Positions 37,255 to 64,000 of a stretch of 64,000 nt of DNA are shown in pieces. Every line of letters starts with the position of its first letter. Positions within the stretch are counted from its first letter, which is position 1. The stretch is taken from assembly GCA_013420905.1 (NCBI GenBank), contig JAAXNY010000016.1:1054001-1118000 (forward strand). Reading direction: 5' to 3'. Source of the stretch: Collybia mongolica. Taxonomy: Eukaryota; Basidiomycota; Agaricomycetes; Agaricales; Clitocybaceae. Below the pieces are notes generated by a model, which saw only the letters and a program-made list of their open reading frames with translations, was not told where the DNA came from and made no database searches. Made by a program: the position numbers and the translations under genes.

Positions 37255-37690
37255 CCCAAATTGCCCTATATAAATCCTTGTCATCCTGAAGCTGCGTCTG
37301 GAGACAGAACCCATTTCCAGCAATGCTGCACAGTGGGCATGGAATAGGACTCCCTACTTTTTCTTTAGCATGAGCAACTTTACATAAGGTGGTGAGTTTG
37401 GCTGGTCAGATTAGCATGATAAAGATAAAAGAAAGTTAAGTAATGGATGGAAGTTGTTGGTCTTCGTGCACTGCCAGACTGCTCATTGTCTTTGTTGACC
37501 TTGTGGTAATGAAGTGATCTGTAAAATGGGTCAATGCTAATGTGCTTTGGATTAGATTGGGTTGACAGACATACTGAGACCCCCTCATTGTCCACCTGCA
37601 CTTTGAGGTCAATGAAGTGGTGTACCATGTTGAGGACATTGTCAGGCATGGTTTTATCCTGCATACTAATGATGTCCTTCGGTTTCCTGT
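37255..37690 (-). pseudogene. fused remnants of the element's Spt5-like and acidic-tail genes
   Basis: From 37690 the minus strand reads KPKDIISMQDKTMPDNVLNM and HHFIDLKVQVDNEG. This matches the exon at about 56876-56733 of the intact element (KKILNIARGFVDLEAQVDD). It is followed at about 37385-37255 by AHAKEKVGSPIPCPLC and GNGFCLQTQLQDDKDLY, matching the third exon of the small protein in element B. The order equals that in the 11-kb element with everything between deleted. Confidence 0.7.
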
Positions 37691-41553: not shown

Positions 41554-42469
41554 ATGGCTAAGTCTACTGCATTTCAAAAAGCGAAGCAATCTCGCAAGGT
41601 GGCATTGTCTTCAGGCTCATCCCAGAGAGTTAAAGGTGGATACTGTGATTTTCAAATGGAAACATGTTACCTATTATTACATTTTGTTTCACCAGGTACA
41701 CGGATAAATACATCAGAGGCAATGGCAATGGAAGCAAAAATGAAGAAAATGAAAGGTATTACTTTTTTTTTTGCATACTTCCTATACCATACTAACATGA
41801 CTAGCTGAACTCGTAGCTCTTCGCAAAGCTGCCCATGCTAAAGAACAGCAGAAGAATGTCATACCACACCCACCACGCGGTGTTGCAGGGAATGGATTCA
41901 ATCTCCAGGCTGAAATGCAACTCCAAGATGATTCCGATTTATACAAGGCCATTCGTGTAAGTTTTACTTCTTAAAACCCTTTGCTCCAATCTTTTTTTTT
42001 ACAAGTAATAGCGCTGCATTCGTAGTTTAGTTGGTAATGCAGGCCTTAACTACTTGGTTGTTTGGCACAGGCAACCTACAGTAGTCATTAGTCAAATCAT
42101 CCGCGTGGTAAGTCTTTTCTTTGCTGCTTTGTTACTCATTTAAATAATTTATTTCAGGCCGAAAGTCAGCATACATACCTCAAAAAATTCCATAATGGCT
42201 GGGCCACTCAAGAATTTATCAAGTCACATTTGAAGAACAAACATGCCTATGCTCGTAAATGTGGGTATACAAATGAGACTGGAAATACAGTAGGGGGCAG
42301 TAATGCTGATGATGAGGAGGAAATGGATGTCAACATTGACTTAAATGAGCATGATGAGGATGAAGTAGATAGTAGTGATGAGGGGGAAGAGGATGGGGAC
42401 CAGAAGGGTGAGGACCAGGAGGGTGAGGACCAGGAGGATGAGGAAGGGAATGAATCAGAAGCCTACTAA
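41554..42469 (+). CDS. small element-borne protein with acidic tail (accessory protein of the Plavaka-type element)
   Basis: A likely five-exon gene starts MAKSTAFQKAKQSRKVALSS. Later exons read AELVALRKAAHAKEQQKN, PRGVAGNGFNLQAEMQLQDD, IRSLVGNAGLNYLVVWHRQP (about 42020-42109) and HTYLKKFHNGWATQEFIKSH (from about 42157), then a long acidic tail to 42469. The order and wording match the gene at 52344-53246 in the 11-kb element. The N-terminus is basic and the tail very acidic. I know the central motif (GxAGxxFNxQ) from many agaricomycete repeat proteins but know no function. Keeping this gene in a deletion derivative that lost its transposase hints at a role in mobilisation or regulation. Exon borders are approximate. 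Confidence 0.65.
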
Positions 42470-50327: not shown

Positions 50328-51668
50328 CACTGTGCACCTGGTGGGGGTGGTTTTTCCCCCACTTAATGGATGAAAAGGGTTTTTCCTAAGTTTAGTGGAT
50401 GAAATTAAGGGGTATGAAAATAGGATGAAATTTCATCCCACATATTTCATCCTTTAAGAGGGTGAAATTGTACTGTTAAAATACCATCTATTAATGGAAT
50501 GAATTTCATCCCATAAGGGGTGAATTATATGGGATGATTTTCATCTAATAAAAGGGGTGAATTTCATCCCATAAAAGGGGATGTATGGGATGATTTTCAT
50601 CTAATAAAAGGAGTGAATTTCATCCCATACAAGGGGATATATAGGATGATTTTCCTGTATTTTACAGTCCCCCACATGTCCTTGTGGACTCTGCACAGAC
50701 TCTGCATGGACTCCAGAGAGTCTGTGCAGACTCACTTACTTTCTTTTACTATTATAAATTACTGACTTACATATAAGAGTTTACTTACTATTTTATCTAC
50801 TAATGTTCTACTTGGGTGGAGTGGGCCAACACACTGTGTGGCAGATACTCATTCTTTATTTCTTTTCTTAGGAGAAATAAGTCCATTCTACATTCAGGAA
50901 GTTGTAAAAATGACTAGAAACAATGTAAATGATAGTTTATAGAGGTCATGTGACCATGGGAAAATGTTACCAAGTAAACAAGCAATGCCTGTGCACAAAG
51001 CCCAATGCCATAGCTTGCCTGGTTATGGAGAAAACACAAAAACCATCAGAACTAACTTTTACCAGGATCATGTATACTAAATAAGCATTTAGATTGTTGT
51101 CATGTATTTGGTATACTTATAATAGATCATGTGACATGTGTCAATAAATAGAGAAATCAATCCTCTTTGTATTTCAGGTAAATATAGTAGTAGTTGTTGA
51201 TTATTCCAATGTTTAGTGTAATTTCCCACAAGGGTCATGTTTAGTCAGGGTCATTGTTGTTATAAGATGTTTATTCACCCCTGGCATAACACACAGACCT
51301 TCAAAACTAGCTGAATCTGGACATTTCTGATATTTCGCTCAAAATAGACTGTGGGAAAATTATGCTCAACAAGGAAATTGTAGAGCCATGTTTGTACATT
51401 CCAAACATGTAAAAACAAAGTTAATAGCTTTACTGTTTATGGAGAAAATCACAAAATAAATTTTGAAACACAATGCTTTGAAATATTAGATATGCATAAT
51501 TTTGATGGCATCATCAAAAGCATTATGTAAGCATCCCAAATACATGCAAATTATGTCACAATACTTTGTATTTGTGGAAAAATGCTGTAAAAAGCCATAA
51601 GAGAAGAAACATCCCATTATGGAAATATTTTCCTGCAGTGTTGAAATATGAATCAATGAATGCATGAA
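50328..51668 (+). mobile_element. truncated Plavaka-type element D (with R1 copy 3)
   Basis: It begins CACTGTGCACCTGG at 50328, carries the subterminal motif array to about 50650, and then R1 copy 3 at 50815-51668. This is the same order as the right part of element A, so D belongs to the A sublineage. R1 breaks off at 51668, where the left end of the 11-kb element starts. A small hairpin (CTGCACAGACTCT and its complement) lies at about 50690-50730. Confidence 0.75.
50815..51668 (+). repeat. dispersed repeat R1, copy 3 (truncated)
   Basis: Matches 32834 to about 33705 in the same orientation. The tail after ATGAATGCATGAATG is missing because the 11-kb element begins there. Confidence 0.85.
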
Positions 51669-52343
51669 TGCACTGTGAGCTCCATAGAGGATGAATTTAC
51701 AACCCCCCTTCCCTTACTTAAGCAGTGGGAAGTCATCTTTATAAAGTATAAATTTCATTTACAAATATTGGGAAATTCAACCCTTAGGGTAGGTAAAAAG
51801 AGATGATTTTTCCCCTTGAAAGTATGTATTTTATTGGCTGAATTCAAGCCATAGAATGTCCCAAGTCAGCACCTTTAGATTCATCCACTATTCATACCCT
51901 GGATGAATTTCATACCTCTAAAGGCAATATTAACCATGTTATCCCAGGATAAATTCTTCACCAAAGCTGGATTAAATAAATGGCTTTTATTCATCCCTTG
52001 TCTTAGAATGAATTTCATACTTTTAAAGGTGGGATTAGCTACAGTATCTCTGGATGAATTCTTCACCATAACTGGATTAATTCTATGGCTCTCAATTCAT
52101 CCCCTTGCTCATGATGAATTTCATACCCTTGAGTTTGGATGATTTTCAACAATTTTCAGGGGATTTTTCAGACTGGGGAGCAAGAAACATTCATCCACTG
52201 AATGCAATAATTATATTGCCTAAAATATAGCCTTTTCTAAATGAAAGTCATCCACTAGAGTGCCAAAAAAATCCAATTATATATGAAAAAAATATGGTAT
52301 CTGTATGGTTTATCAATTAGAAGATTTTGGAAAATTCTCCTAC

Positions 52344-53246
52344 TCAGAAGTTCTCCTCTTCTAGGTCTGATTCACCTGTCATGTCCTCATCCCCATCCTC
52401 ATTGCCCTTGCCCTCATCCCCGTCCTCTCGGTCCCCATTTCCTATGGCTGTGTCCATGTCATCACTCTCGCTGTGTTCACTTCCATCCTCATCTGCTTCC
52501 ATTTCTCGATCATCATCATCTGTGTTATTGGCGAGTGTTGAGGGTGGTGGTAGATATCCGCGACGACGAGCATAGGCGCGCCTGTTTTTGAGGTTGTATT
52601 TTATAAATTCCTCGACGGGCCAGCCATGGGCAAATCGGTTCAGATACTCGTGACGCTTTCGAGCCTGACAACTTTGTTAGTCAAAGGGAGGGTAAATAAC
52701 AGGAGACTTACTACAGCAATTATTCGGGCTATTATTGGTTTGGGTTGTTGGTGCCATGAAAGGCTGTAATCGATCCCTGCCGTGGCAGTCAATTCACGAA
52801 CAGAACGCTATAGATAATCAGATAGATTCCGTGAATAAAAATGAAACTTACGCGAATTGATGTATATAAATCCTGGTCATCTTCTAAACACATTGCAAAC
52901 TGTAAGTTAAATTTCTTTCTGCTAGAGCCGCACGCTGGCTGTGGTATCAAGTCCGATGTTATCTCTTTTGCAGGGGCAGATTTGCGCAGGGCGTCGTTCT
53001 CGGCTGATGGTATTGACGAAGTTGAGCGCACATTGAAGAAGAAATAAATCGGACGTAGGTACCTTGTAGTTTCTTCAGCTTAGCTTGTAGGGTCATGGTC
53101 TGTGCCGCTTCAGGTGTAATACAATTAGTGAAATCATCCTACTAGAGGAAGTGGCAACTACCTAATACTTTATTTTTGGCAGGAGTTGACCCCGACTTGA
53201 CCTTGCCACCACGCTTATTGACTTTCGATGCTGAGGATTTAGCCAT
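52344..53246 (-). CDS. small element-borne protein with acidic tail (copy in element C)
   Basis: The gene starts MAKSSASKVNKRGGKVKSGS at 53246. Later exons read RRKKFNLQFAMCLEDDQDLY-like sequence (about 53000-52860), SVRELTATAGIDYSLSWHQQ (about 52810-52715) and HEYLNRFAHGWPVEEFIKYN with KNRRAYARRRGY (from about 52660). A strongly acidic tail ends EEENF at 52344. Exons and introns correspond to those of 41554-42469. It is transcribed toward the left end of the element. A DNA-binding or regulatory role like that of plant TnpA is possible by position, but no known DNA-binding domain is visible. Confidence 0.65.
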
Positions 53247-53591
53247 GAGGATTGTGAGGATTGAGTTGTTGAGGTAGAGGAGAGATGTCTTACATCCTTA
53301 AGAATTCGACCATGGATATGCTCCATGGTTAGGCACTATTGACGCGGAAGCGGAAAACACAAAATCTTGACACTAGTGCAAGGGTCGGAATGAGGAATTC
53401 CGACTCCAATTCACTTAATTGTCGCTTGATGAGTTCTAATGTCGGATATTGGGGCAGAGGGTTTTGCTATCGCGGCTCCACGGATCTCTGAACAAGTGTC
53501 GGAAAAGACACCCGTAGAGTAGTGAAATCACATATAGTGTTATATATTTGAGTTAGTAAAATTATAGCTCGTTATCCTAAACGCATACCTC

Positions 53592-53992
53592 ATGCCTACC
53601 ATGTCTCGTTCCTCAATACTTCACAGTGGTGTTGCGAGTCCGTGCATCAACGAGGATGGCCACAACACCATAGAAAATGTGACAGAGCCCGAAACAGACT
53701 CTGACCACGAACAATCCATTGGTCCAGAAAATCAACTTGGGCTACCGGAATACGTCGGGTGGGTTCCGTATTGTTCCAACGCCTCCAGTAGGGAGGCCAG
53801 TACAACCAAAGAAATAGGTATAGATCAGTTTGACGAGTGGCGCTAAGGCTGAACATCGGATGCAGGTGATAATAATCATGTCAAGAATTCCGGGAAAATC
53901 TCTGAGGACGGCAAGGGGGAAATGGGAGTCAGCATTATTCAATCTGTGAAAGACAAGGTATGTGCAACACTTAACTGCATTTTGGTTGTATA
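53592..53992 (+). CDS. unknown short protein of element C
   Basis: The frame starts MPTMSRSSILHSGVASPCIN and runs with low complexity (ENVTEPETDSDHEQSIGPEN). An intron from 53818 to about 53865 would join TTKEIG to DNNHVKNSGKISEDGKGEMG and extend it to a stop near 53990. It is kept with few changes at 63000-63400. I do not recognise it. It could be untranslated leader of another transcript instead. Confidence 0.3.
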
Positions 53993-54235
53993 ATTGATCA
54001 TGAAAAGGATATTACAATACATATACACGTTGAAGGTGGAAGCCTAGTAAACCCAGTATTTAACTTCAATTTCCAACAAAAAAGGCAGCAGGGAAGTAAA
54101 CTGGGCCGTAGGATAATAGAAAAAGGAAGACAGCATAAACGACAGAAATTAAGTCATACTTAGGATAGGATGTGGGCATGTCAATTATCAAGCAATGTAT
54201 ATATTATAGAAGGATTATGTTAATAGTGCCCCTAC

Positions 54236-56876
54236 TTATTTTGCACGAGTTTTTCGAGCCTCCTCACGAAGGCTGGCCATCAGCTCACCACCACGGGCTT
54301 TCTCATCCTTAGTCTCAATACCAACACAGAGTTTGTTGGGATTGAGCTCAAAATGCTCCTCCGACAAACTCTCGTGGCCATCCTCTGTCCGGTTGATCAC
54401 AGCTAAAAGAACAAATGCATTGTCACCATCATATCGATGGTGAATTCGCTGGACATATTTACCACAATGCTTGCCCTCAATTACAAGAAGCAAGCCATTG
54501 TCGCGTGTTGGATTGGGATGTTTCAGAGTAACTTGCTCTGGTGACAAGAGTTCTGAAGTGGTATAATGCGTGGAACGGATGGATAACTCTCCATCCGTCT
54601 CCACAACCGAAGCGGCTACCTCCTTGCTCTTCTGTTTCCCTTCAGTGACCAGCACTTTCACCTTTCGACCAACCAGCTGCATGTCTAATAGTGGGTGGAT
54701 GGGGCCTTGCGGCTGTGGTGAAGGGAGTGGGGAATATATCCGGGTACTTGGCCCAGCCTCGAGGGGTGGGAGCGGTGTGAGTGGAGTCCTTGACGATGGA
54801 TTCCAAGCTGGCGTGAGGTAGTGGAAGTCGGGCATTGGAGTGCCACTTCCGGATGGCTCGGGGATAGGCTGTGAGGCCACTGGTGGGTGATTTGTGATAA
54901 AATGAGCGGGAAGGGGTGTAAATATTTTATTTTTGGTGGGGGCGAAGTCATATAATTTACGATGAGAGCTTAATGAAAATGAGGCCAAGCTGACTATCAG
55001 TAGATATGAAATGACTTACCGCACTTCCACAATATCATCGTAGTCCAGAACCTGCTTGTTGAAGGGATTTGCTGGGTTGAGGTGCATAAATTGCACAGTT
55101 ACTTTGAGGCCACTCAAAGTCTCCTGCGACTGCTGAACATCCTGGACAACTGCATGGTAACCTCTCATTGTGTGACCTTTCTTCTGAACTATGACTTCCA
55201 TGCCTTTCCAGGGCGTATGGTTGCGCTTCATAAGGCCTGTCAATTCGTCATCTGATACCGGAGCGTGTCCATGGAGTGTAATCGGTGGGCTGATAACTTT
55301 GATCCAATTCCTATGGACTTTGTTTGGCTGTTGGACATTAATTAGTAGTTACTCAAAAATATATCAACTATTTAGTTACCTTTAGTGCGTTGTGAAGGAC
55401 AAAATCCTCATGTACCTCTTGTTCCAGCCGTTCGGTAATAGAGACCATTTGTTCTTCAACCCCTACCACCCATCCCTGTTCCCCTCGCAGAGGGCCGCTC
55501 TGCACTTCAACAAAGTGGTCCGGAGCTATATACTTCCACAAATTAGACCACTGGAACATCTTTTGACCCTCCCCATTCATAAGATCTATTTCCACAGAGC
55601 GAGTTCCTATAGCTTTGATAATCCCGTTGTTTCTTGACGACTTGATCACCACTTCTTCACCTTCGAAGAATTTCCATTCCATGGGGCAAGGGAATTGTGC
55701 TGTTGCGATATGGGGGTGGGGGGATCTTAAGAATTTGTCAAGTATATCACTTGGCATTGAGAGTGGCTTGGTGTCAATGGGGACAGAAATTGAGTGGAAA
55801 TGATAAGTTCAACGTTCAAGGGAGTGGTCGAATATGCGATTGAAGACAGAGGCCGTTCCATCTTCTCTATATTCAACGCGCGCATTGGGATAATTTGCCA
55901 TGGTGTTGACCTCCGTCCCAAGGTTGAATAAGGCAGGGTTCGTGCGGGTAAGAGGTCGTTTCCTTTTCTTAGAGGAAGAGGACTTATTTTGAGGGAAGTG
56001 GGGGAGACGGGGAACTAAAAGGAGGGTAGCTTTCCCCCAGTTCTCAGTAGACAGAACATATCCAACGTCCCCTTTGTATAGCCCCCAATTGACTGTGACC
56101 CAGTCTCCAATTGATGGAGACCCTCCATGCATCTCCATATCCAGCAATTGTGTCCATTCCTCTGTCCTAATCCCAAAAAGACCATCATGGGGACAAATTA
56201 TCGTTGGGGCTGAATATAGAAGTGTCGAAAGCTCGGTGTTCATGGCAGCCTCAATGTAAAACCAGCCTTGTATAGCATCTCGGGTGAATGCTGATCGCAA
56301 CCTGTGAACTGGAAGTGCATTCTGGAAGAGGTAAATAACGGCCTCCTCCTCCCTCCCCAGCTGGAGGCGGAAAATAAGGTATTTCTGTAAGAGGTATCAC
56401 AAAATGCGGTGGTGAAGACTCACAGTGCAGTGGACCCTTAGCAATGGATAATCCGAGTCGACTGGACCGCGTATGGTGTTGATGGGTAGGTCATCCGATT
56501 CAATGTCTGATCCTGGCCCATAATCGTGCGCTGGGTGTTGGGCACGTGAACGTTCCAATATCCCCTCCAAAAGGTCGTCTAGTTGGCCATCCTGGGCATG
56601 AGATCTCACCACTGATGTAGATGGTCTCGCCGTGCTTTGGGATTCTACAGTGTCGTCCCTGTCAATGAAGTCATCTGGCATGTCGGGGTGTTAGCAGGTC
56701 CCAAGCACTACGAAGGCGGGGGGGGGCGCACCGAGGTCCTGATCTTCCTCAAATCCTTCATTATCCTCCTTGTCATCCACCTGAGCCTCAAGGTCAACAA
56801 AGCCGCGTGCTATGTTAAGGATCTTCTTGCCTGTCATCCCTGCAGCAGTGTCCTTAGGTTTCCTAAGGGCATTAGA
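54236..56876 (-). pseudogene. Spt5-like protein (NGN plus several KOW modules) carried by the transposon
   Basis: Minus-strand exons join: KKILNIARGFVDLEAQVDD (about 56876-56733), then DFIDRDDTVESQS, then an NGN-like stretch YLIFRLQLGREEEAVIYLFQ ... RDAIQGWFYIEAAMNTEL. A KOW motif GDWVTVNWGLYKGDVGYVLS with ATLLLVPRLPHFP follows. Further KOW-like parts are MEWKFFEGEEVVIKSSRNNG, GPLRGEQGWVVGVEEQMVSI, WKGMEVIVQKKGHTMRGYHA and a proline-rich linker before LVGRKVKVLVTE. The end is EEARKTRAK at 54236. This is the domain order of Spt5, the elongation factor that clamps RNA polymerase II with Spt4. A TGA at 55811-55809 interrupts the frame between two otherwise continuous parts, so this copy may be dead unless an intron removes it. 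Its start may lie farther right, toward the palindrome. Confidence 0.75.
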
Positions 56877-57021
56877 TTTTTTTGTTAGTCTATCTTTATT
56901 ACTATCATTATCATTCGTGTTGGTTTTTTGTTTTAATACACTACTACATTGATATATACTAATAAACTAATGAATCATACTTACGAAGTAGTCGACAAGG
57001 AGGGAGCGGTGGCTCCAACAG

Positions 57022-57253
57022 ATAGATGGTGGTGGTTTGGGATGAAGAGCGAAACCGTGCGAAAGCGGGCTGGGGCCTTACCTTATTCATCAGAATGTTG
57101 AAGTGTCGGGCATCCCGGGCATTGGGGTCATATGACCGTTCACATGACCCCAATGGCCGGGATACCCGACACTTCAACATTCCGATGAATAAGGTAAGGC
57201 CCCAGCCCGCTTTCGCACGGTTTCGCTCTTCATCCCAAACCACCACCATCTAT
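57022..57253. repeat. 232-bp near-perfect palindrome
   Basis: ATAGATGGTGGTGG at the left is mirrored by CCACCACCATCTAT at the right. The arms match almost base for base to a centre near 57137 (TGACCGTTCA). It lies between the Spt5-like gene and the transposase, which point away from each other. Both arms are GC-rich compared with the surroundings. Confidence 0.92.
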
Positions 57254-57638
57254 TTGATATGCCTCCTCATAGACCCTTGGTAAGTCAATACAAATTTCTA
57301 TTAGTTAGTATATAGAATATGTAGTCATAATAAGAACTTCAATACAATTTGAACATGATCATTATTGAAAGGAATACATTGACTAATAATTAAATGAAGT
57401 AGGAAACCTAGGAACGTTGTTGCAGGCGTGCACGACGGCGTTCCGCCGCTTCATCAAGGTGTTCATTGGGGAGGGCAATATCAAACGGTGGGGTACTGCC
57501 CATTAGGATCGGGTTGTACATCGGAAACAACGATAGTGGGGTGTGGTGAGGTTCTGAACATTAACCTTGGTGCGTCTGGCCATTCACAACTCATTATCTA
57601 TCACTAATCTATTTATATACTTAAGACATTTAGACACC
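57254..57638. promoter_or_regulatory. region upstream of the transposase
   Basis: Between the palindrome and the transposase ATG (57639). It contains TATTTATATAC at 57610-57620, 19-29 bp before the start codon, which could serve as a TATA-like element. A short minus-strand coding-like trace is present near 57420-57500 but has no clear family. Confidence 0.35.
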
Positions 57639-60600
57639 ATGGGCAATAAACGACGCCTTTGCGCGTGTGGCTGCGGCGAGAGACTTCACCGTAAGACTGA
57701 AGCACGGCACCTACTTGGCAAAGGGCGCTCGAGTCTCACTGCAGCAGTTCTGGAGCAAAACAATCTCCTGGTAACAAGTTCAACGGCTAAGAGTAAAGCC
57801 CCTCGAAAGAAGTCTTCAGGCCGCACCATGAAGCAACAAATTGTAGGACGTGCTACACCTGCCCGACAAAGGTTACCGAACTCGGGATTCCGCCCGCCCA
57901 CCAATCAACAATCCCAGAGTCATGCTCATGCTGACTGGGAGGAGAACATGCACGTTGAGGACCCCCAATCGCAATTAGTCCCCATTGACTATCCAATGGA
58001 TAACGAGGCAGGACCATCAAACGTTCACTCTCGCGAATTATCACCACCATCAGCCGTGCTGCACCATGAAGACCATTATGGGTTATCCAATCCACGCCGC
58101 TCTCATCGTATTGCGGCATATCTCGACAAAATTGGCAAGGAAAGATGGGGGCCTGATCCTACTCGACAGTTCATCCCCAGGGAAGGTGACGAGAGCAGCG
58201 AGGAGGATGAGGATGAGGGAGACAAGCGGAATATGGATACTAATGATGACACGGACAGTGAGGGTTCTATCAACAGCAATGAGTATCTTGAGGAAGACGG
58301 TAGTGATAATGAAATGCCAAGCGCAGAGCCTGGGTTAGAGGGTATCTCGGTGTGGGATCTTCTTGGCGAGGGGTTTTTGAAGGAAGCCTCGCGGTTAGGT
58401 GTGTCCACTCGGGTCCTTCGAAACACTCTCTGATCCATATCCTCATAGAGGAAGTATTAGACGAGAGTGACTTAAAAATCCTCCGTCTCTATACCATCAA
58501 AATTGAAGAAGGCCTCACTCATAAAGCTTACAACAAAATTCGTTATCTTCTTCCTGAGCTGTCAGCCAACAGTTTGAAGAACACAGAGAAACGAATCCAG
58601 TTTCTTTCCGGTTTTCAGCCAGTACATTATGACTGTTGCACCTCCTCATGTGTGTGTTACACTGGGCCGTACGAAACCCTTATACAGTGCCCCAAATGCA
58701 ATAAGGATTGCTACAAAGCTGATGGAAAAACACCCCTCTCCTATTATGAATATCTCCCTATCATCCCCTGACTCCGCGCCATGGTCTCAAGCCGTGCTCA
58801 AGCCAGGAAGATGCAATATCGGTCTAAGCACAAACATATCCCAACGAAAATGACTGATATATTTGATGGTACACATTATCAATTACTCCGGGAGACTTAT
58901 ATTACAATTGGCGATGAAGAACTCCCTATATGGTTCTTCTCAGATCCCTGCGACGTAGCACTAGGATTATCTACGGACGGTTTTGGTCCTTTCAAGCGCC
59001 GTAACAAAACTGCCTGGCCATTAATTCTATTTAACTACAACCTTCCTCCTGAAGAGCGAATGCTCAAGGCAAACATCATTCCACTTGGGTCAATTCCCGG
59101 GCCGAAGAAACCCTACGATATGGATTCCTTCTTGTGGCCTGTAGTTCAAGAATTACTACAGCTCGAGATTGGTGTTTCTGCCTTCGATGCTCTGACTGAA
59201 TCCATATTCCTTCTCCGAGCATTTCTAGTTGTTGTTTTTGGTGATATACCCGCAGTTTCCATGGTCATGCGAATGAAGGGTCACAACGCCATCTATCCTT
59301 GCAGAATGTGCACCATCAAAGGCATCCGTGCCCCATCCTTGCGAGTGACAACCCATTATGTTCCACTGTGCCGCGATGGCTTTCCACAGCCACAAGAACA
59401 ATACAACGCACCAGAACTTCCACTACGAACTCATTCGTCATTCATTGAACAAGCAAAAAAAGTCCAGTTTGCTGTAACCGATGCAGAGTCCGAACGCCTC
59501 GCAACTAAATATGGCATCAAGGGTATTCCACTCCTCAGTACACTGAGTTCACTATCTTTTCCTACCTTGTTCCCTTATGATTTCATGCATCTTATATGGT
59601 CTAATCTCATCCCAAACTTAATTCGGCTTTGGACTGGAAAATTCAAAGATCTTCCCCACAATGACAAAGGCTATGTATTATCCTCAACCGTATGGGAGGC
59701 TATTGGAGAAGCCACTGCAGATGCGGGGAGTACTACTCCGGCGGCATTTGGGTCTAGGGTTCCTAATATTGCATCAGAGAGGTCTAATATGATTGCAGAA
59801 ACATATTCGGTCTGGACATTTTACATCGCACCAACTCTCCTTAAAGGCCAATTTGTACATCCCCGATACTATGTATTAAACTAGTTAGACTGTTAACAAT
59901 TTGCCTCCAATTTGAAATTACACAAAATCAAATAGATGAGCTTGAAAGGGGGTTTCAGGATTGGGTCAAGGTGTATGAGCGGTAAGCACTTCTCGCAACC
60001 CAGAGGTCATTTTCTGATATATATATTAACAGCCTATATTATAAATATGACCCACTGCGCGTATCGACTTGCCCCCTCACAATTCACGCACTACTCCATA
60101 TCACACCAACTGTCAGGGCCATGGGTCCAGTCTGGGCCTATTGGGCATTTCCAATGGAGCGCTACTGTGGTGATATCCTCCGCCATGTCAAGAGCCGACG
60201 GTTTCCTTATGCGAGCATCAATAACTATATCACCTCATGTGCCCAGTTGGCACACATAACTCTTCTCTACAATTTACAAGGCAAACTTCAGGTCTTACCT
60301 GCAAAGTCCCATGATCAGGATTTCAAATTAGATGAATGTACGTTGTTTATCATACTATGCAGTCCTTCAATAATTATAGTTAAGATCCATTACACGTCCT
60401 CACCCCACCAAAAGGACCTGCAGCAAGCCTCTCTCGTTCCCTATGGATGGTGCTCACAGCGACATTGGCTACCCGCCTCGAGAAATCCCCATCAGTGATT
60501 CGACGGCTTATACCACAAGTGACGCAATTCCATCAATACGGCCGAGTATACCACCTGGAGGGCGGTGATACTATGCATGCCCGCGAGCTTCTTCCGCTTA

Positions 60601-61025
60601 GGTCTGACAGCCGTGATATGTCATTTGTCAAGGTATATTATGCATTTCTGATTTTTTTGACATACTCTGACTCATACAAACCCTAGTATCAACTTGAGGT
60701 TGATAAATTTGCACATCGCAGGTCCCGAAGATCCGAGTTTGAGCTGCGAGAGTTTTTCGGGCAACTCCATCGTTTTCTTGTTGTTGATATCCCAGCATCC
60801 CCAAGAGAGGGGATTGAGGCAGAATCATTCATTTATGCAGTTATCAGGCAGGTCAAGATATCAGAAGCAGCAACTGATTATTGCTCCTTGAACTATTACA
60901 AAGACCTAGGATCTATAGAATGTGTTGATCTCAACCAGGTGGAATGTGTGATTGGTCGCATTATGGATCGTGGAAAGTGGTCAATTATTGATCGATGTCA
61001 TTCCTTATCTTCAATACATACATAG
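57639..61025 (+). pseudogene. Plavaka / tnp2-type DDE transposase with a premature stop
   Basis: It starts MGNKRRLCACGCGERLHRKT, a C-x-C-x-C zinc-binding N-terminus, followed by an acidic region. The first intron is 58399-58448. Then come CCTSSCVCYTGPYETLIQCP (zinc motif), DIFDGTHYQLL, DVALGLSTDGFGPFKRRNKT, WPLILFNYNLPPEERMLKAN, IPGPKKPYDMDSFLWP, VFGDIPAVSMVMRMKGHNAI and FPYDFMHLIWSN. The C-terminal part has MGPVWAYWAFPMERYCGDIL and GRIMDRGKWSIIDR, ending at 61025. These are hallmarks of the fungal Plavaka family within the CMC (CACTA) group. A TGA at 58769-58771 stands where the family has arginine (CGA to TGA), and the frame shifts by one near 59878. The copy is inactive as read but nearly full length. 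Confidence 0.9.
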
Positions 61026-61161
61026 TTGATACATCCATTCTTTTATTAACTACATATACTACTCTTTTTGCCCATGCATCTTACAGCCTTGCTCAAGCAA
61101 TATTTTAATAATAGTAATAGCATAATCCTTTGGTTCCCTAATGCCATGCTGAATTACTCTC

Positions 61162-61981
61162 TAGGGCTGCACGCCGTGACCGTACCTCACGGTATGTACA
61201 GACCTGTAGTACGGTTACCGTACCCGTGCCGTTCAGCCTCAGGTTCACCACGTTGACGGGACGGTCAACGCCCGTCCATTGCCGTCGAAAGACGGCCGTC
61301 CACGGCATTGGACGGTATTAGACGGGTATCCCCGATCAACCGTCTGCTCAAAGCTCACCTCTCATGGGTTCCCCTCAGAAATCCTTTACAGCTCGATATC
61401 GTAGGAAAGAGAAGGCCTCTATCAACAAACTTGAGGAATACTTCAAACTTCCTGCTGAAGATTTTGACACCTGTAATCCAATTCAGTGGCGGATGGGTTG
61501 ACGCGCTCAGTTCCCGAATCTGTTTCGCCTTGCTCGTGACATCTTATGTATTCCTGGTGAGTCATTCTAACATCTTTGATATTTTGTTCACGGAACATCC
61601 CCATGCCAGGTTCTGCTGTCGCCGTAGAGCAGGTCTTCTCAGATGGTCGGGACACCATTTCCCTCCGCTGTGCAAGCCTCCATGCTGATACCATCCGGAT
61701 TCTAATGCTAGTTAAGAAACGGGTACATCTGGCCCGCGCAAAGGCAAACGCAGCCCTACGTCGTTGAATACCTAGCGTACAGTATGGAATGTAATTTTTT
61801 TTTACTTTCAATGGATACCGTCTGCCGTACATAACCGTACAACGGCCGTCTCCGTACCCGTCCCGTAGCCGTTGGGGTTTGACTGACCAAACACTATGGA
61901 CAGTGGACGGTCGAGCCGTACCCGTCTCATGACCGTTGATTGTACGGCCGTACCCGTCAGACGGTATGGTGTGCAGCCCTA
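61162..61981 (+). mobile_element. short hAT element with dimerisation-domain remnant
   Basis: Ends TAGGGCTGCAC and GTGCAGCCCTA are inverted repeats, and the 8-bp word TTACTCTC flanks both sides (61154-61161 and 61982-61989), as expected of hAT elements. Inside, 61425-61767 reads LEEYFKLPAEDFDTCNPIQW, FPNLFRLARDILCIP, then after a short intron GSAVAVEQVFSDGRDTISLR and TIRILMLVKKRVHLARAKA. This is the hAT C-terminal dimerisation region. An in-frame TGA follows QWRMG. Subterminal CCGTAC/GTACGG words are dense at both ends. It is nested in the 3' flank of the Plavaka transposase. Confidence 0.9.
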
Positions 61982-61989
61982 TTACTCTC

Positions 61990-62696
61990 AAGAGCTTGCC
62001 TTTGGGCCCCCTTCACCTGAACTTACTAAGTACTCCAAGCTTACAAAATATAACCTCAGATTGTTCCCCCTCTATTTAATTAATCAAAGTACTGTCTTTA
62101 AATTCCATTCTTTTGTATAAATTTTGTACCCCCCTATCAGATGAAAATATACAACCCAACTCACTCTCTTATAGGTTGAAATTTCATCCAGTTAATTGGA
62201 GAAAATTCTAATATCTTTTTTCATCTAAAGGATGGCTGAAATATGTGAGATGAAAATAAACTACTAAAATCACTCTTCTATAGGATGAAATTTCATCCAG
62301 TTAACTGGGGGAAAATTTAATACTTTTTTTCATCTAATGGATGGCTAACATATTTTGGATGAAAATCAGCCACTAAATTCACTCTTCTATAAGATGAACT
62401 TTCATCCAATTAATTGTAGTTAATTGAAGGGATTTTTAATACATATTTTTATCTAATAAATGGCTGAAATATGGGGGATGAAAATCAGGCCACCAACTTC
62501 ACTCCTTTATAGGATGAAATTTCATCCAATTAATGGAGGGAAAATTTAATACCTTTTTTCATCTATTGGATGGCTGAAATATGTGGGGTGGAATTTCAGC
62601 CACAATTCATACCCCTTTAATTCAGCCATTTAAGTGTGGAAATTCATATTTCCACACTTAAATGGCTGAATTTCATGATCCAATGGGGACACAGTG
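61990..62696. other. right subterminal zone of element C
   Basis: From about 62150 the motif GGATGAAATTTCATCC or close variants recurs every 60-120 bp, mixed with ATGGCTGAAATATG. A perfect hairpin with 25-bp arms and the loop TCAT lies at 62619-62672. The element ends CACAGTG at 62696. Confidence 0.75.
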
Positions 62697-64000
62697 ATGT
62701 CTTGCATCCTTAAGAATTTGACCATGGATATGCTCCATGGTTAGGCACTATTGACGCGGAAGCGGAAAACACAAAATCTTGACACTAGTGCAAGGGTCGG
62801 AATGAGGAATTCCAACTCCAATTCACTTAATTGTCACTTGATGAGTTCTAATGTCGGATATTGGGGCAGAGGGTTTTGCTATTGCGGCTCCATGGATCTC
62901 TGAACAAGTGTCAGAAAAGACACCCATAGAGTAGTGAAATCACATATAGTGTTATTTGAGTTAGTAAAATTATAGCTCGTTATCCTAAACGCATACCTCA
63001 TGCCTACCATGTCTCGTTCCTCAATACTTCACAGTGGCGTTACAAGTCCGTGCATCAACAAGGATGGCCACAACACCATAGAAAGTGTGACAGAGCCCAA
63101 AACAGACTCTGACCACGAACAATCCATTGGTCCAGAAAATCAACTTGGGCTACCAGAATACGTCGGGTGGGTTCCGTATTGTTCCAACGCCTCCAGTAGG
63201 GAGGCCAGTACAACCAAAGAAATAGGTATAGATCAGTTCGATGAGTGGCACTAAGGCTGAACATCGGATGCAGGTGATAATAATCATGTCAAGAATTCTG
63301 GGAAAATCTCTGAGGACGGCAAGGGGGAAATGGGAGTCAGCATTATTCAATCTGTGAAAGACAAGGTATGTGCAACACTTAACTGCATTTTGGTTGTATA
63401 ATTGATCATGAAAAGGATATTACAATACATATACACGTTGAAGGTGGAAGCCTAGTAAACCCAGTATTTAACTTCAATTTCCAACAAAAAAGGCAGCAGG
63501 GAAGTAAACTGGGCCGTAGGATAATAGAAAAAGGAAGACAGCGTAAATGACAGAAATTAAGTCATACTTAGGATAGGATGTGGGCATGTCAATTATCAAG
63601 CAATGTATATATTATAGAAGGATTATGTTAATAGTGCCCCTACTTATTTTGCACGAGTTTTTTGAGCCTCCTCACAAAGGCTGGCCATCAGCTCACCACC
63701 ACGGGCTTTCTCATCCTTAGTCTCAATACCAACACAGAGTTTGTTGGGATTGAGCTCAAAATGCTCCTCCGACAAACTCTCGTGGCCATCCTCTGTCCGG
63801 TTGATCACAGCTAAAAGAACAAATGCATTGTCACCATCATATCGATGGTGAATTCGCCGGACATATTTACCACAATGCTTGCCCTCAATTACAAGAAGCA
63901 AGCCATTGTTGCACATTGGATTGGGATGTTTCAGAGTAACTTGCTCCAGTGACAAGAGTTCTGAAGTGGTATAATGCATGGAACGGATGGATAACTCTCC
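62697..64000 (+). repeat. second partial copy of the interior of element C
   Basis: 62698 onward matches 53288 onward in the same orientation to the end of the window, with about 5 percent differences. It starts exactly at the right border of element C. Many of the differences are CpG against TpG or CpA. It carries the unknown short ORF (63000-63400) and the 3' part of the Spt5-like gene. Confidence 0.9.
63644..64000 (-). pseudogene. Spt5-like protein, C-terminal part, partial at the window end
   Basis: The minus frame ending at 63644 matches 54236 onward: LLVIEGKHCGKYVRRIHHRY, FELNPNKLCVGIETKDEKAR and the same EEAQKTRAK end. The frame is open to the window edge. It continues beyond 64000, so its state cannot be judged. 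Confidence 0.7.

Follow-up and report, generated by a model that had tools for sequence, protein, structure and literature searches.

What does a gene resembling Spt5, which like NusG holds the polymerase on its template, do inside a DNA transposon? The question is raised by a stretch of 64,000 nucleotides from the fungus Collybia mongolica (contig JAAXNY010000016.1, positions 1,054,001 to 1,118,000; hereafter the window), in which a complete element with the termini CACTGTG...CACAGTG occupies positions 51671-62696. A multi-exon Spt5-like gene lies on its minus strand, divergent to a transposase gene of the tnp2 type. Judged from its sequence, the element is a three-gene CACTA-type DNA transposon, comprising the tnp2 transposase, a third gene (ORF3) and the Spt5-like gene. 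Coordinates are collected in Table 1, and the genome searched for further copies comprised 46 Mb in 26 contigs.

The first-pass annotation, made from the window sequence without database searches, had read the minus-strand gene as a multi-exon protein with an NGN-like domain and about four KOW-like modules, and had named an empty search against NGN and KOW models as one result that would speak against it. Both profiles matched the protein spliced from an intact copy above their cut-offs (Pfam Spt5-NGN, E = 7.5e-5, 23.0 bits, cut-off 22.4; Pfam KOW, E = 6.6e-5, 23.0 bits, cut-off 22.3), and in the subfamily 2 protein the NGN match reaches E = 1.8e-10. The KOW domains are present in tandem. All 15 sequence matches in the PDB at E <= 10, 13 of them at E <= 3e-4, were to Spt5-type chains, a chain of RNA-directed DNA methylation 3 among them. 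An acidic Spt5_N region is matched at the start of the protein below the curated cut-off (0.023; 5.4e-4 in subfamily 2), and the true N-terminus of the gene model is uncertain. At the other end the C-terminal repeat array is absent from the protein apart from a single TPAWN-SSRTP remnant, unchanged between subfamilies 1 and 3, which aligned to the host repeats (best values 0.004 and 1.7e-4 in a one-sequence comparison). A glutamate aligned by eye to yeast E338, the residue changed in spt5-194 (E338K, PMC4978902), is kept in 13 of the 15 sequences covering the position, and the two exceptions (L025, L082) also carry stop codons. Taken together, the NGN and tandem KOWs, with the weakly matched acidic start, the probable repeat remnant and four introns, identify the minus-strand gene, at the level of sequence, as a genuine Spt5 paralog.

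The gene model itself was refined during the analysis, with an intron model for exon 3 that added eight residues being replaced after comparison with subfamily 2. Sixteen near copies were modelled, of which three (L006, L021, L023) were truncated or disrupted and were dropped; near copies split by insertions or lying in pieces (L007, L011/L027, L030) were excluded from modelling. Nine of the 13 complete near copies that remained are open, and the window copy is broken by one stop. Foldseek matches other than Spt5/NusG proteins (agenet, tudor and KIN proteins) were treated as generic small-barrel matches. The predicted model of the Laccaria protein has a low mean confidence (predicted local distance difference test, pLDDT, 49.8; below 50 over residues 369-574), and we therefore make no claim about how the C-terminal domain folds. 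A six-frame search with the KOW profile alone gave five matches in the genome, two in host Spt5 and none in the window, so that this profile alone is too weak for finding element copies.

Searches with the proteins of both subfamilies and with the NGN profile found 69 Spt5-like clusters in the genome, fragments included, a lower bound since only the best candidates were scored. A divergent tnp2 transposase lies within 7 kb of 51 of these loci and within 20 kb of 55, against a mean of 0.5 pairs and a maximum of 3 in 500 random placements at 7 kb. Short matches (15/78, 13/90), host Spt5 and repeats of loci already counted were excluded from the pairing count. Seen from the transposase, 51 of the 86 clusters with at least 50% identity (fragments included) have an Spt5-like partner, as do none of the 10 distant ones (27-31%). 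The paired transposases are either 89-100% or 62-78% identical to that of the window, and the partners of the latter group are Spt5-like proteins 46-57% identical to the window's, where scored. Pairing spans at least three subfamilies (47-53% protein identity), and intron positions are the same in the Spt5-like genes of subfamilies 1 and 2. ORF3 lies within 5 kb downstream on the same strand at 50 of the 69 loci, and the full trio is present at 39; these counts derive from 91 listed matches, short pieces dropped, so that there are at least 91. No Pfam match was obtained for a 129-residue piece of ORF3. A diverged copy of ORF3 (44% identical) on the plus strand at 42158-42370 marks another relative of the element within the window. 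The second Spt5-like copy that the first-pass annotation had seen at the end of the window is real, and the trace that it had placed at 37560-37690, in a further element (element A), narrows to a piece of the protein start only (Table 1).

The limits of the element are sharp. Besides the window, 28 genome matches to a left-end query begin at bases equivalent to 51667-51672, 18 of them at 51671, and three long matches begin further inside the element (best 40 of 363 candidates scored). With a right-end query, 31 matches stop at bases equivalent to 62696-62698 (best 40 of 136 candidates scored, matches below 60 bases omitted). The CACTG ends proposed at first pass agree with these genome-wide matches, and CACTGTG..CACAGTG was found in all eight copies read at both ends (the window and seven others). 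Target duplications are 3 bp in five of the eight (the window and four others) and 4, 2 and 1 bp in the remaining three; all those of 3 bp start with A. The ATG duplication in the window could be due to chance, the right flank being rearranged: positions 62697-64000 hold a second copy of the element interior (from 53285 onward, 97%) and not a continuation of the left-flank repeat, so that rearrangement of the site took place during insertion or afterwards. In 22 copies the right 600 bases match those of the window at 99-100% identity, and the family has thus spread recently.

The transposase had initially been described as a near-complete Plavaka/tnp2 transposase, KDZ and Plavaka being names reportedly introduced by Iyer and colleagues in 2014. 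The tnp2 part of this description stands. Transposase_21/tnp2 (PF02992) matches the window exon at E = 5.4e-24 and a longer frame of a near-identical copy at 4.4e-25, and it is present in all 120 listed of 1155 transposase relatives; the window copy has one in-frame stop and one frame change. The Plavaka label was rejected, as all 119 PF18759 places in the genome are more than 1.5 kb away from any tnp2 locus. Four of the 119 (two loci) are within 7 kb of an Spt5-like cluster, and PF18759 was not listed for the transposase itself at E <= 10, with filters that drop most matches above 0.1. Plavaka elements, which like this one are fungal members of the wider CMCT group of DNA transposons, are given the termini TGT..ACA or CATCA..TGATG, and fungal EnSpm elements CAC..GTG with 3-bp duplications (Kojima 2025, PMC12730594). 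Neither Plavaka terminus was seen in the eight copies read, which end in CAC..GTG, and by termini and duplications the element is closer to fungal EnSpm than to Plavaka. Fungal Transposase_21 proteins were already placed in the CACTA superfamily in the SmTRC1 paper (PMC1636069).

Is the Spt5-like gene maintained? Between subfamilies 1 and 2 its ratio of non-synonymous to synonymous substitution rates (dN/dS) is 0.23-0.24 (two comparisons), which indicates that the gene is kept by selection, though changing faster than the transposase (0.08-0.12, five comparisons); these values are uncertain, as between-subfamily dS is 1.2-1.9 and near saturation. Relatives of the protein were found in Laccaria amethystina, Collybia nuda, Gymnopus androsaceus, Lentinula raphanica, Dendrothele bispora and metagenomes, and none in the viral contigs searched. 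Some are longer, at 900-999 residues (P0004 and P0005 from Dendrothele, P0014 from Gymnopus), with C-termini that resemble that of the element protein. The pairing, the between-subfamily ratio and the relatives in other Agaricales bear out the earlier suggestion that the gene travels with the element family rather than having been picked up in a single chance event. These comparisons support the view that it is an old, standing part of the transposon family.

The two divergent genes are separated by a palindrome with 117-bp arms that carries a 30-bp motif as an inverted pair (Table 1). Between subfamilies 1 and 2, the outer arms contain stretches of 45-51 bases with 91-98% identity, compared with about 66% for coding DNA; the inner part is not conserved. 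The motif was sought in 67 loci and found with at most five mismatches in 18, including subfamily 2 (L025, L067), and in those 18 two inverted copies occur at 0-3 mismatches. Across the genome there are 60 sites with at most three mismatches, all within 8 kb of Spt5-like or transposase genes, and a reversed-motif control gave zero genome sites at the same threshold. The motif may be part of a shared bidirectional promoter. Each arm also holds ATGAATAAG followed by GTAAGG, so that the first mini-exon may be identical in the two genes. In subfamily 3 the two best matches are again inverted (one copy read), a slight hint that protein and motif diverged together between subfamilies. At C4:1945967-1946148, two inverted motif sites lie beside a tnp2 gene at C4:1949676 and no Spt5-like gene was detected within 7 kb; this is possibly an element that lost or replaced it.

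The copies also bear a strong signature of CpG decay, a probable trace of past silencing. Among the 13 copies there are 190 differences from the majority, 84 of them from one older copy (L022). C-to-T or G-to-A changes account for 162, and 151 of these fall at CpG, which holds 17% of cytosines. Such CpG-biased decay is the trace left by methylated CpG, and the elements have therefore probably been CpG-methylated.

Alongside the element copies, the genome has a housekeeping Spt5 of the host and one Spt4 locus. The kept NGN, the linkage to the presumed target genes, the cis motif, the host Spt5 and Spt4 and the silencing mark lead us to favour an elongation factor dedicated to the element, a counter-silencing Spt5 paralog working with host Spt4 and RNA polymerase II, to which we give about an even chance. 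The protein would pair with host Spt4, clamp onto polymerase that starts at the shared bidirectional promoter, and keep it elongating across roughly 10 kb of element DNA marked by host CpG methylation, much as RfaH-like NusG paralogs serve the operons to which they are dedicated. Binding to Spt4 and to the polymerase is suggested by the NGN fold and the conserved glutamate; recruitment and any effect on silencing are further suppositions. A role in elongation and in evading silencing is plausible, and gains in plausibility from the CpG-decay signature and the shared bidirectional motif. Somewhat less probable is a more specific version, in which the transposon's own Spt5 is recruited through the element-specific promoter palindrome and drives transcription through methylated chromatin, protein and motif co-diverging; this would be the first parallel to RfaH in a eukaryotic mobile element.

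Several observations weigh against this reading, in addition to the near-saturated dS. The window copy is broken. Evolution of the Spt5-like protein outpaces that of the transposase by a factor of 2-3, and recent copies show weak or absent selection (0.34-0.64 in four comparisons of the Spt5-like gene, 0.58 and 2.5 in two of the transposase), as expected for decaying copies. Linkage is incomplete: 35 of the 86 transposase loci have no Spt5-like partner within 7 kb, seven neighbouring pairs within that distance are not divergent, and upstream of 40 of the 91 ORF3 places no Spt5-like gene was detected. Only 26 of the 60 motif sites point at an Spt5-like gene on the same strand and 29 at a transposase on the same strand, and the motif is not conserved in subfamily 3 (best match nine mismatches, one copy read). 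Moreover, the CpG decay suggests past methylation, not a protein that counters it.

Other functions may also be considered. A full NGN with its Spt4-face glutamate, joined to a C-terminal repeat cut to one remnant, would suit an interferer that does not itself promote elongation. Such a protein would vie for Spt4 or polymerase with host Spt5, or with some silencing pathway that depends on Spt5, and silencing would be weakened or host transcription altered as a result. In plants an Spt5-like protein, KTF1/SPT5L, acts as a silencing factor (PMC8934623), and a chain of RNA-directed DNA methylation 3 is among the PDB matches. However, the remnant shared by subfamilies 1 and 3 would be unneeded by a mere blocker. 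To our knowledge no SPT5L-type silencing pathway is known in fungi, and we regard interference as unlikely. About equally unlikely in our judgement is a TnpA-like DNA or nucleoprotein accessory in the service of transposition rather than transcription, with the KOW/NGN parts binding the palindrome and subterminal repeats of the element. CACTA elements do carry a second DNA-binding protein, such as TnpA of Spm, and stretches of the outer palindrome arms are better conserved than coding DNA; on the other hand, ORF3 is a second candidate for the TnpA role, and the Spt5-wide architecture, acidic start and repeat remnant included, points to work on the polymerase.

DNA transposons often pick up host genes, and the many decayed copies with weak selection among recent ones might be explained by a host Spt5 gene that was caught accidentally and has been carried passively ever since. 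Linkage in three subfamilies or more, intron positions shared by subfamilies 1 and 2, the between-subfamily dN/dS, the open reading frames of nine in 13 complete near copies and the relatives in five named genera make such passive cargo very improbable. We find it harder still to believe in a separate element or host gene family that merely sits beside the transposase. Eighteen of the 69 loci lack a divergent transposase within 7 kb, and 14 lack one within 20 kb, as that explanation would allow; yet the gene lies inside precisely bounded elements whose ends contradict it, and shares the inverted motif with the transposase.

Table 1. Features of the element and related copies in the window (positions count from the first base of the window; a dot marks features without strand).
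Feature	Position	Strand	Remarks
Complete CACTA-type (tnp2) element	51671..62696	.	End-DNA matches genome-wide and seven further copies
Left target-site duplication, ATG	51668..51670	.	Window flank read
Right target-site duplication, ATG	62697..62699	.	Window flank read
Spt5-like gene	54236..56837	-	Exons 56837-56732, 56674-56424, 56360-55380, 55327-55020, 54968-54236; four GT-AG introns
First modelled exon, acidic Spt5_N-like start (FVDLEAQVDDKED)	56732..56837	-	Weak Pfam match
In-frame stop breaking the window Spt5-like copy	55809..55811	-	Intact copies elsewhere
Palindrome between the divergent genes, 117-bp arms	57019..57256	.	Inverted 30-bp motif pair at 57028-57057 (-) and 57218-57247 (+)
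tnp2 transposase gene, several exons	57639..61025	+	Approximate limits; PF02992 in main exon 58313-59884; window copy interrupted
Third gene (ORF3), with several short exons and an acidic tail	52344..53246	-	Exon limits approximate; copies downstream of the Spt5-like gene elsewhere
Right subterminal repeats, three units	62154..62593	+	81-100% alike; repeat analysis of the window
hAT-like insertion nested in the element	61162..61981	+	8-bp duplication TTACTCTC (by eye); holds what is presumably a piece of hAT dimerisation sequence, plus strand
3' end of second Spt5-like copy	63644..64000	-	Runs off window end; protein 93% identical
Relic of Spt5-like protein start in element A	37584..37664	-	27 residues, E = 7.5e-4

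Among eukaryotes other than plants and some ciliates, a genome with several Spt5 genes is said to be an exception (PMC8934623). In the one fungal genome considered here there are 69 Spt5-like loci, counting fragments, and 51 have a transposase as their partner. Already known are transposons with anti-silencing genes that are host-derived (TET/JBP) or unrelated (VANC); in the literature searched, with few subscription papers covered, no description was found of a Plavaka or CACTA element with an Spt5/KOW gene, in line with the first-pass annotation, which knew of none. Spt5 as a standard transposon gene suggests that the element may help the host polymerase to transcribe it where the host seeks to silence it. 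If the protein does act on RNA polymerase II, elongation is a step at which transposons can oppose silencing, and the family would offer natural Spt5 variants that separate the parts serving the polymerase from those for host regulation.

Among the systems to which the element may be compared, bacterial NusG paralogs have a single KOW, VANC is unrelated to Spt5, and plant SPT5L/KTF1 and Paramecium Spt5m are host genes outside transposons. With fungal CACTA/EnSpm elements it shares the PF02992 transposase, CAC..GTG ends (PMC12730594 for termini), mostly 3-bp duplications and subterminal repeats; unlike those described in the literature searched, it carries an Spt5 paralog and ORF3. DNA transposons that carry TET/JBP genes (KDZ, Plavaka, EnSpm and others) are thought to be helped by this host-derived gene to escape methylation-based silencing (PMC12730594), but that cargo is a methylcytosine-oxidising enzyme whereas here it is an Spt5-like elongation factor. 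The VANC protein of Arabidopsis VANDAL elements is a transposon-encoded, sequence-specific anti-silencing protein (PMC5735166, PMC10398659), and SPT5L/KTF1 and Spt5m show that a second Spt5 can be specialised for transcription that is non-coding or related to silencing (PMC8934623). The NusG paralogs RfaH, LoaP and ActX are dedicated to bacterial operons that are long or silenced, several encoded beside or within the target operons and ActX on plasmids (PMC7819879). Recruitment by a specific DNA element, as with RfaH, may be hinted at here by the inverted 30-bp motif, which occurs near these genes only. Like the specialised NusG paralogs, the gene described here encodes an NGN-KOW paralog beside its presumed target genes, with a housekeeping copy in the genome; those paralogs are bacterial and act on bacterial RNA polymerase, whereas here a multi-KOW eukaryotic Spt5 resides in a DNA transposon.

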